Of a stretch of 64,000 nucleotides of DNA, positions 46,209 to 49,537 are shown in pieces. Made by a program: the position numbers and the translations under genes. This stretch comes from Branchiostoma floridae (Eukaryota; Chordata; Leptocardii; Amphioxiformes; Branchiostomatidae): positions 12,369,625-12,433,624 of the forward strand of contig NC_049981.1 of the NCBI RefSeq assembly GCF_000003815.2, in the 5' to 3' direction. Positions within the stretch are counted from its first letter, which is position 1. Every line of letters begins with the position of its first letter. Below the pieces are notes generated by a model. It saw only the letters and a list, made by a program, of their open reading frames with translations, searched no databases and was not told the origin of the DNA.

Positions 46209-49200
46209 TAGTAGGGACACGCTGCTATTATTTATTCTGGAGCAAGATGGAGCAGGTCAGAGGTCATCGCCTGACGGCAAAATCTAGGGGTATTTGCTGA
46301 GCTCTGGGTAGGGGTGAAACAGGGGGCAAGTCGACCTTTTGACCCACCGAGGAAAGTCTACACCCCCCCCCCCCAAAAACCCCAACCCCAAACCCTTTTT
46401 TCTAAAAAAAGCCCTTATTTCCCTTGGTCGTAAGGCTAAACGCCGGGAGGCCTTCCTTTTTTTCTTTATTTTATCTAGTTTTATCGTACAGGTTAGTTTT
46501 ACGTACGAATATATACCATCTATATGTACTTGCAGTGAATCAATGCTTTGAAGTAGCTATACGTGTTGCTCCGGAGTATGCTCCGGAGTATGTGAGAAAG
46601 CATATATTTGTTGAAAGTAAGTATATTTGTCATGTACGTACGACCCTATACCATCTATATGTACATGCAGTGAAACATTGCTTTGGAGTAAGTATACTTG
46701 TTGCTCCGGAGTAAAAACACTGCTCCGGAGCAAAAATACTGCTCCGAAGTATGCTCCGGAGTAAGTGAGTAAGTATATTTGTTGTAAGTATGTATATCTG
46801 TCATGTACGTATAAACATGTGCCATCTATATGTACATGCAGTGAATCATTGCTTTGGAGTAACTATACGTGTTGCTCCGGAGTAAAAACACTGCTCCGGA
46901 GTATGCTCCGGAGTAAGTGAGTAAGTATATTTGTTGTAAGTAAGTATATTTGTCATGTTCATATAAACATGTGCCATCTATATGTACATGCAGTGAATCA
47001 TTGCTTTGGAGCGGCTATACGTGTTGCTCCGGAGTAAAAAAAAACTGCTCCGGAGTATGCTCCGGAGTAAGTGAGTAAGTATATTCGTGTTAAGTAACGC
47101 ATACCTATTTGCCATGTACGTGCCTGTTATGTAGGTATATATCAACACAACAACACAAAAGACAGTAGTGTACGGTGATCTTATCACTTGACGTGAAAAA
47201 TATATCAAGGAATTCATAACCAACGTATATTTCGTCCTATATGTGAAACATGGTATCACATCAGGAAAGAAAAGTTGTACTGCAAACGATATGGCGACCT
47301 CACATTACTTCAGGACGAGGTAACCATATTTTTTCATCAGTGTCTGTTCTGAGACCTACTTCTTGCCGTATTCGATCTCATTACTGTAACGAGGCAACGC
47401 AGCGAACTCTATTAGATAAAACTTTTTGCCAGCACGCTTCGTCTGTTTGATGACACTTTGAGGAACATCGCCTGGCTGGTGAGGTAGTGCGATGGACCAG
47501 TCTCGATAGAGTGTCCACTCCTCCTCTTCACCGCTGTGGTAGCCGCTGTCGTAGCCAGTGCGGTCACTTTCATCAGATGAAACCGTCCCGGAGGACACAT
47601 CTGTCCCTGTATCACTCTCGGAACCACTTTGGTCGCTGTCGGTTTCTTCTGTGGAGTCTCCCTGCCCGGAGCCCATCACAGATTTGGCGCCTGAGACGCT
47701 TTCTTCATCTTGTGACGCCATCAAATCTTCGGAACCAACCGTGGCCGTGTCGTGTTCAGATGACACGTCGGAGTCGTCAAAAACATCGCGGTCCCGGTAA
47801 GACCCCGTCTCGGCATCAACGACGACTTCTCCCGAGGCAACACCTGACTTGTCTCGGTGTTTTCTTTCCAGATGACGCTCGAGGTTGAACGCACGATCAA
47901 ATTCCCGATCACAAATGTCGCAGACGTGAGGCATGCTTTTTCGTCCGGTGGACAGAAGGAAAGTGATAAGATATTGATGTGCACACATATATTTGTCGCG
48001 CATTTAAGTTTTAGGGACCATACGTTTATCTCATCCCATCCCCTGTTTGTATCTACGTATGCCGTAAATGCATTTGTGGTATGAAGTATACCTGTATGAA
48101 ACAGGGGGTGGGATGTTTTATCTAATAGAGTTCGCTGCGTTGCCTCGTTACAGTATTGAGATCGAATACGGCAAGAAGTGGGTCTCAGAACAGACACTGA
48201 TGAAAAAATATGGTTACCTCGTCCTGAAGTAATGTGAGGTCGCCATATCGTTTGCAGTACAACTTTTCTTTCCTGATGTGATACCATGTTTCACATATAG
48301 GACGAAATATACGTTGGTTATGAATTCCTTGATATATTTTTCACGTCAAGTGATAGGATCACCGTACACTACTGTCTTTTGTGTTGTTGTGTTGATATAT
48401 ACCTACATAACAGGCACGTACATGGCAAATAGGTATGCGTTACTTAAAACGAATATACTTACTCACTTACTCCGGAGCATACTCCGGAGCAGTTTTTTTA
48501 CTCCGGAGCAACACGTATAGCCGCTCCAAAGCAATGATTCACTGCATGTACATATAGATGGCACATGTTTATATGAACATGACAAATATACTTACTTACA
48601 ACAAATATACTTACTCACTTACTCCGGAGCATACTCCGGAGCAGTGTTTTTACTCCGGAGCAACACGTATAGTTACTCCAAAGCAATGATTCACTGCATG
48701 TACATATAGATGGCACATGTTTATACGTACATGACAAATATACTTACTTACAACAAATTGACTTACTCACTTACTCCGGAGCATACTCCGGAGCAGTTTT
48801 TTTTACTCCGGAGCAGTGTGTTTACTCCGGAGCAACACGTATACTTACTCCAAAGCAATGATTCACTGCATGTACATATAGATGGTATATGTTCGTACGT
48901 ACATGACAAATATACATACTTACAACAAATATACTTACTTACAACAAATATACTTACTCACTTACTCCGGAGCATACTTCGGAGCAGTATTTTTACTCCG
49001 GAGCAGTGTTTTTACTCCGGAGCAACAAGTACACTTACTCCAAAGCAATGTTTCACTGCATGTACATATAGATGGTATAGGGTCGTACGTACATGACAAA
49101 TATACTTACTTTCAACAAATATATGCTTTCTCACATACTCCGGAGCATATTCCGGAGCAGTGTTTTTACTCCGGAGCAACACGTATAGCTACTTCAAAGC

Positions 49201-49537
49201 ATTGATTCACTGCAAGTACATATAGATGATATATATTCGTACGTAAAACTAACCTGTACGATAAAACTAGATAAAATAAAGAAAAAAGGAAGGCCTCCCG
49301 GCGTTTAGCCTTACGACCAGGGCAAATAAGGGCATGTCTCACGAGAGGGGGGTGGGGGTGGGGGTGTTGGGGGGGGGGGGGGTGTAAGACTTTCCTCGGT
49401 GGGTCAAAAGGTCGACTTGCCCCCTGTTTCACCCCTACCCAGAGCTCAGCAAATACCCCTAGATTTTGCCGTCAGGCGATGACCTCAGACCTGCTCCATC
49501 TTGCTCCAGAATAAATAATAGCAGCGTGTCCCTACTA
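46209..49537. mobile_element. 3.3-kb near-palindromic element with 1.2-1.4-kb inverted arms
   Basis: The left arm (46209-47422) and right arm (48115-49537) are inverted copies from the outer ends (TAGTAGGGACACGCTGC) to the inner edge (ATTAGATAAAAC). They enclose a 692-bp unique core. Each arm contains subterminal repeats of about 150-190 bp bearing clusters of the 8-bp palindrome CTCCGGAG, roughly four clusters on the left and five on the right. The arms also share a fragment encoding MIPCFTYRTKYTLV in opposite orientations. Small differences (bases, homopolymer lengths, repeat number) show two real, aged copies rather than a copy-paste assembly error. The core and inner left arm hold a zinc-finger ORF. 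No transposase was seen. A long-inverted-repeat transposon carrying a cargo gene is the simplest reading. Confidence 0.82.
47356..48003 (-). CDS. C2H2 zinc-finger, acidic protein inside the palindromic element
   Basis: An open frame of 215 codons. The likely start is the internal ATG at 47934 (MPHVCDICDREF), since the upstream residues show no conservation logic; this gives 192 aa. One C2H2 finger: C-x2-C-x12-H-x4-H (CDICDREFDRAFNLERHLER, then KH). A long Asp/Glu/Ser-rich acidic region follows, and a basic C-terminal stretch QTKRAGKKFYLIEFAALPRY. The frame ends in TAG at 47356-47358, inside the left arm. The right arm has TGG at the matching codon, and the frame would otherwise run on about 17 codons, so the left copy probably carries a premature stop. 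The C-terminal piece has a faint chromodomain-like look (YLIEF...WVSEQTL in the right arm), which is speculative. Probable nuclear DNA-binding protein of the element. Confidence 0.6.
   Translation of the reverse strand: MRDKYMCAHQYLITFLLSTGRKSMPHVCDICDREFDRAFNLERHLERKHRDKSGVASGEVVVDAETGSYRDRDVFDDSDVSSEHDTATVGSEDLMASQDEESVSGAKSVMGSGQGDSTEETDSDQSGSESDTGTDVSSGTVSSDESDRTGYDSGYHSGEEEEWTLYRDWSIALPHQPGDVPQSVIKQTKRAGKKFYLIEFAALPRYSNEIEYGKK

Follow-up and report, generated by a model that had tools for sequence, protein, structure and literature searches.

A palindromic element with Polinton-type ends, a zinc-finger gene and arrays of its putative binding sites

At w46202-49538 (unstranded) of the window, the whole 64-kb stretch that was analysed (C3:12369625-12433624; positions in it carry the prefix w), lies a palindromic, non-autonomous element with Polinton-type ends, whose relatives we searched for in the 513-Mb genome (431 contigs). 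An earlier sequence-only reading had matched it to no family; its ends are those of Polintons/Mavericks, and it is a variant of the non-autonomous Polinton derivatives. It can be classed as a derivative of this type from its sequence, by terminal repeats that it has in common with a Polinton of the same genome and by the 6-bp target duplication of its family. No palindromic Polinton derivative bearing a zinc-finger (ZF) gene was described in the titles and abstract beginnings of the open-licence literature, in part among the best 10-20 matches, which does not prove its absence, and the available portions of PMC2836005, PMC10120064 and PMC6431247 make no mention of a palindromic derivative. Taken as a whole, we consider it on balance probable that the element is a palindromic, non-autonomous derivative of a Polinton end that is mobilised in trans and whose ZF protein binds the arrays in its arms.

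The palindrome and its family

The limits of the element were set by comparison with relatives and of its arms. The true left end is w46202, because the relatives compared begin with AGTAGT; a first placement of the end at ATAGTAGGG was rejected, as AGTAGT is part of the element. The inverted arms around a unique core that had been described earlier were confirmed: w46208-47422 pairs with w48115-49538, long segments being 94-99% complementary, and the core between them measures 692 bp. The left arm (w46202-47422, plus strand) is the inverted repeat of w48115-49538, the right arm (minus strand), which is about one array unit longer, and the two differ both by substitutions and by that one whole unit. 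The outer terminal segment (w46202-46373, plus strand) is common to an intact Polinton (85% over 181 columns). At the right junction (w49533-49544, unstranded) the terminal 6 bp of the element are absent and there is no target duplication.

The ZF open reading frame (w47356-48003, minus strand, 215 aa) is the sole conserved frame of the element by the ORF list and Pfam, with no integrase, PolB, protease or capsid gene. It had been placed in the core on the minus strand, and it is indeed a C2H2 frame on that strand, although it extends into the left arm with its final ~21 codons. By comparison with relatives, coding probably starts at w47934 (Met24), codon 24 being the likely start because the frames upstream of it differ among copies, and the frame is 17 aa shorter than in relatives because of a premature TAG. 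Within the right arm we found the remnant of a second, inverted ZF copy (w48104-48178, plus strand, approximately codons 191-215). Matches to the core of two-gene relatives run through the gene on the left side, end at w48102 (L022) and resume on the right at w48115, inside the lost copy near codon 191, which places the deletion junction at w48103-48114 (unstranded). By this sequence comparison the window copy is a deletion derivative of a two-gene palindrome and would have lost most of one of its two gene copies.

A genome search with the ZF protein returned at least 97 matches, corresponding to at least 84 genes at at least 69 loci after merging. Among these 69 loci, 54 have a single gene, 14 have two genes head to head (in several, the window element among them, the second copy is partial) and one has the opposite order with its genes ~4 kb apart. 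In the fuller relatives a single gene is present as two copies that read outward, and behind each copy come an array and a Polinton terminal repeat. The clearest palindrome, L024, is 4,335 bp long with arms of 2,089 bp at 99.8% identity, two outward-reading ZF genes and the duplication TGTGTA, and another, C18:1.10, has arms of ~1.2 kb at 100% identity and the duplication GATCCC. In a tree of 330-bp end segments from nine elements, the two arms were sisters in six (L024, L025, L026, L028, L029 and the Polinton; support 96-100), the window element fell at the root, and L022 and L023 mixed. Arm identity over these segments was 0.89-1.00 within the eight small elements, against a mean of 0.82 between elements; the Polinton value was 0.70, its repeat being shorter than the segment compared.

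Some loci depart from this layout. The element at C11:9.39 and its C19 copy are reversed, with the ZF gene reading inward to two facing arrays, an arrangement that a simple model does not explain. At both places (C11:9.39 Mb, L052, L047, L053 and L059; C19:6.46 Mb, L060 and L061) a partial second ZF lies opposite the inward-reading one, and the C11 element has no target duplication. L042 has a ZF gene with no array, and L036 and L038 have arrays with no ZF gene. L016 (C6:13.12 Mb) and L038 (C17:18.60 Mb) are ~1.2-kb elements with the family ends and no ZF, L038 retaining 11 CTCCGGAG sites. Open frames of 1,000-4,272 aa, in which runs of N are suspected, surround some of the ZF matches.

Polinton ends and the elements that carry PolB

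A search with w46209-46580 returned at least 142 matches in the genome, and the expectation of a multicopy transposon family with common outer ends was borne out. Exact 6-bp target duplications flank 12 of the 16 elements that could be read at both ends (L022, L023, L024, L025, L026, L028, L029, L016, the C15 Polinton, C18:1.10, C13 and C3:6.62), a count that omits loci with a single readable end, among them L021, L027, L033, L034, L035, L036, L039, L040 and L042. L038 has a duplication matching at 5 of 6 positions, and no matching duplication was found for L037, whose two ends may come from two elements, for C11:9.39 or for the window copy. The proposed check for a flanking duplication therefore succeeds for the family and fails for the window copy. 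The available part of PMC12220804 associates rve integrases with target duplications of 6 bp.

The ends of the window element recur in a 17.3-kb Polinton at C15:3688421-3705755 (duplication GATGGT), whose terminal repeats are 192 bp long and 94% identical to each other; aligned over 181 columns they are 85% identical to the window element, and over 176 columns 93% identical to L028. This Polinton encodes an rve integrase with a chromodomain, a frame with a sub-threshold DNA_pol_B_2 match, another frame upstream of that one in which there are three C2H2 fingers, a protein that falls narrowly under the cut-off for adenovirus protease, and two PC4-like proteins. It has neither CTCCGGAG nor the ZF gene of the palindromes. 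A Bcl-2-like protein and a ribonucleotide reductase small chain are also encoded in it (L031, L032). The integrase has 12 genomic copies that are 96-100% identical and free of stops, so the enzymes could be supplied in trans. The idea that the ZF belongs to the gene set of the C15 Polinton family was rejected, since no ZF match begins less than 20 kb from the 18 best of 94 integrase matches; a candidate 12-kb element at C8:3227-3239 kb was likewise rejected, as its two ends point away from each other and come from separate elements. The window element and its family are like the Polinton/Maverick (adintovirus-like) self-synthesizing elements in their AGTAGT ends, terminal repeat and 6-bp target duplications, whereas the window element is palindromic, has its own ZF gene and arrays, and is without the integrase, PolB, protease and capsid genes.

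Two elements of ~7.4 kb have PolB and the ZF gene adjacent to each other and exact 6-bp duplications. In the first, C13:887720-895074 (duplication CACATA), the PolB frame is open for 1,451 codons, its first part 51% identical (624 columns) and its second part 71% identical (669 columns) to the C15 frames. Pfam finds fingers only and no polymerase domain in this frame, and PHROG gives only a weak endonuclease match, so the name PolB rests on the C15 relative (71%, 669 columns). PolB and ZF leave little space in the interior of this element; outside it, at C13:877500-883500, no integrase was found (best E 0.26). We rejected C13 as a full Polinton, its ends being 7,355 bp apart. The second element, C3:6620550-6627996 (duplication AACATA), has terminal repeats of ~475 bp at 95% identity, and the finger part of its ZF was not found. 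At a further locus, C18:5.53 Mb, an AGTAGT end is accompanied by four CTCCGGAG at 11-bp steps and an interrupted ZF frame, with a PolB match 3.5 kb further on; it is uncertain that this PolB belongs to the same element, because no second end of the element was located. At all three of these loci the ZF has an end on one side and PolB on the other, and the palindromes look like an inverted copy of the end of a PolB+ZF element. At C5:7445292-7452262 (L057, L062, L063) we also observed a palindrome with 3-kb arms that are 99.7-100% identical, interrupted PolB relics and few CTCCGGAG; a ZF gene is found immediately beyond the left arm, and the corresponding place on the other side is N.

The zinc-finger protein and the arrays

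The ZF product of ~209 aa consists of a finger, a middle region of 109 residues (32 Asp/Glu and 26 Ser) and a C-terminus. The single C2H2 finger is matched by Pfam zf-C2H2 at E 7.2e-5 and 23.5 bits, just below the curated cut-off of 25.2, and all PDB sequence matches fall on the finger (among the best 60 of 73 and the best 60 of 206). The C-terminus was modelled as a sheet plus helix with fair confidence (mean pLDDT 66 overall, ~75-92 in the last 70 residues), and among the hits that Foldseek and VIA-align list for this model are many chromo and chromoshadow domains, with weak scores. Compared locally with the Polinton integrase, the ZF protein matches best at the integrase chromodomain (E 0.69), and Pfam finds no match in the C-terminus and no chromo match in the ZF proteins. 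The protein has a single C2H2 finger and its middle is acidic, and the weak fold matches suggest that its C-terminus is chromo-like. A search for ZF relatives in viral contigs yielded 126 pattern matches, none of which was confirmed by tblastn.

Within the family, purifying selection acts on the ZF: dN/dS is 0.41 for 91 pairs drawn from 14 close copies, and among distant pairs it is ~0.2-0.35 where dS is unsaturated (for instance, 0.167/0.52 for L042/L049; dS is infinite in 4 of 28 distant pairs). The finger alone gives 0.86 among close copies, with few synonymous changes, and for the window ZF against L021 and L022 dN is approximately equal to dS.

All 26 occurrences of CTCCGGAG in the 64-kb window are inside the element, 11 exact sites in the left array (w46569-47067, plus strand; 0.013 expected in the left arm from dinucleotide shuffles) and 15 in the right array (w48470-49176, minus strand). 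The sites are borne on tandem repeat units of 152, 171 and 190 bp, in agreement with the spacing of 150-190 bp in both arms that had been noted before. Genome-wide, paired CTCCGGAG sites occur at 1,097 places versus 0 for the control; among the five such places listed on C1, three lie next to ZF matches, another is an isolated pair and the remaining one is only partly listed. CTCCGGAG has the form CTC-CG-GAG, that is, two inverted GAG with CG between them. In the diverged subfamily of C11:9.39 and C18:1.10 the arrays are composed of GAGTSACTC (GAG-TSA-CTC), in which the GAGs face the opposite way, with 14 occurrences in the C11 interval versus 0.017 expected and 4 in C18:1.10 versus 0. The 100% identical arms at C18:1.10 Mb also hold a much larger subterminal array of TTATGAATAA type that is without GAG (L050:1510-1960, L051:760-1200).

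Finger residues R14, N17 and R20, at recognition positions -1, 3 and 6, are invariant in 10 of 10 aligned members, down to 49% identity. We take Arg/Asn/Arg at these positions to specify GAG under the C2H2 code, which was applied to the finger after CTCCGGAG had been seen. The finger weakly matches the GAGA factor (PF09237, E 0.0076, under the Pfam cut-off; 1yui, E 0.1), which reads GAG with a single C2H2 finger that has Asn at 3 and Arg at 6. The ZF finger is likewise single and has the same residues at 3 and 6; it differs in having Arg at -1 rather than 2, and the remainder of the protein is unrelated. Among 32 triplets, GAG/CTC ranks 1, 2, 2, 2, 3, 5, 7 and 12 in eight gene-to-end intervals (12th in C18:1.10 and 7th in L042). 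The intervals that contain CTCCGGAG are related to one another, a CT microsatellite inflates the figure for C13, and this test was picked once CTCCGGAG was already known. The ZF protein may bind the arrays, because its GAG-predicting residues are invariant, GAG half-sites are present in two array motifs and the arrays adjoin ZF genes at three of the five C1 places listed. The finger thus looks suited to bind the adjacent short repeats, and the self-recognition suggested by the sequence-only reading is plausible, supported without being proven.

A possible origin and role of the palindromes

In the explanation that we favour, an integrase and a protein-primed polymerase would be provided in trans by Polintons of the same genome. 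During protein-primed replication a displaced single strand would fold back on itself and be copied, which would generate the palindrome and keep its arms uniform, and the palindromes would be snap-back derivatives of the end of a PolB+ZF element. The ZF protein would probably bind as a dimer to the inverted GAG half-sites of the arrays and may stimulate replication or expression from the element ends; each palindrome would therefore bring its own recruiting factor together with a double dose of binding sites.

We count in favour of this explanation the AGTAGT ends with their 12 of 16 duplications, the similarity of the termini to those of a Polinton that encodes rve integrase and protease, the 12 near-identical, stop-free integrases, the two PolB+ZF elements, the near-perfect palindromes L024 and C18:1.10, the sister arms in 6 of 9 elements, the dN/dS values, the invariant R14, N17 and R20, and the GAG in both array motifs. 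Against it we count the window copy, which is without duplication and has a truncated ZF with dN close to dS, the finger dN/dS of 0.86, the low GAG/CTC ranks in C18:1.10 and L042 and the post hoc use of the C2H2 code, the lack of a Pfam chromo match and the weak fold matches, the C15 Polinton without ZF or array, and the arrays without ZF in L036 and L038. Some of these points would suit ordinary long-TIR non-autonomous Polinton derivatives in which the ZF is a passenger that plays no part in movement and the arrays have grown by chance as tandem repeats: the arrays do consist of tandem repeats, L042 on the one hand and L036 and L038 on the other have ZF and array apart, and the window ZF is truncated. 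We regard this as rather unlikely, given purifying selection across ZF copies of 49-95% identity, the occurrence next to a diverged ZF of arrays that are in the same position but have another, unrelated motif, and the position of the ZF beside an end in PolB-bearing elements too.

The chromo/chromoshadow-like C-terminus predicted by the model could instead point to a silencer or competitor, which would bind the arrays and repress Polinton ends via this domain in a self-limiting or host-favouring manner. However, the acidic, Ser-rich middle (32 Asp/Glu of 109) suits activation at least as well, and the Polinton with the common ends has no CTCCGGAG through which it could be repressed, making such a role improbable. 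That the inverted structure was made by the assembler might be suspected from the runs of N near the centres of several relatives, yet the window element, L026, L028 and C18:1.10 contain no N, the window arms differ by substitutions and a whole array unit, and the same layout is found at independent loci; we give an artefact hardly any credence.

The trans-mobilised, array-binding derivative that we favour has several counterparts. Palindromic defective adenovirus genomes, for which no direct source was found among the literature matches listed, are inverted duplications of one end in a protein-primed replicon, as the palindromes would be, and we know of no inherited, gene-bearing family of such adenovirus-type genomes. 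Plant transposons of the En/Spm type have subterminal arrays bound by their own protein and so combine subterminal repeats with a self-encoded DNA-binding protein, here a putative binder; they use other enzymes, whereas in the window element this protein is the sole gene. Foldback elements have very long inverted repeats and arms that are palindromic over most of the element, a structural resemblance only, and MITEs are internally deleted derivatives with conserved ends. The present family differs from both in its Polinton ends and conserved gene, and from the short MITEs without coding capacity in that its ZF frame is under purifying selection. In the part of PMC8235507 available, AAV snapback subgenomes are inverted duplications of one parental end that hold the regulator region and act on the parent virus, a parallel to the palindromes proposed here; AAV differs in replicating by hairpins rather than protein priming, and its subgenomes are infection particles rather than inherited genomic copies.

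We suggest, tentatively, that the palindromes propagate themselves as satellites of Polinton viruses. They would be heritable snap-back genomes with a regulator gene and its own arrays under selection, in subfamilies that differ in half-site geometry (CTC-CG-GAG versus GAG-TSA-CTC) while the GAG code of the finger stays fixed, and would exploit the Polinton polymerase and integrase. Many viruses are known to have satellites and defective genomes; it is, to our knowledge, unusual for these to form multicopy families that are inherited and bear a gene. If this is true, the Polintons of an animal have their own long-lived satellites, and one small protein with two natural types of array would allow a direct test of how a protein-DNA recognition pair evolves. 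The arrays may also indicate the sites at which Polinton ends are controlled in their replication or expression.

The window element sits among Cys-loop receptor genes or fragments (w23802-61346), with neurotransmitter-gated ion-channel domain matches at w23802-24425, w30770-31426, w53654-54232 and w60954-61346. Within w42790-44071, a 301-aa open frame at w43166-44071 (plus strand) matches Herpes_teg_N, a herpesvirus tegument N-terminal region, above the cut-off (E 1.9e-6), and beside it a short tandem repeat is read in the opposite frame. The stretch w8206-9296, which has a strong AT skew and is high in GC, contains repeat-like open frames on both strands, 141-167 aa in length.
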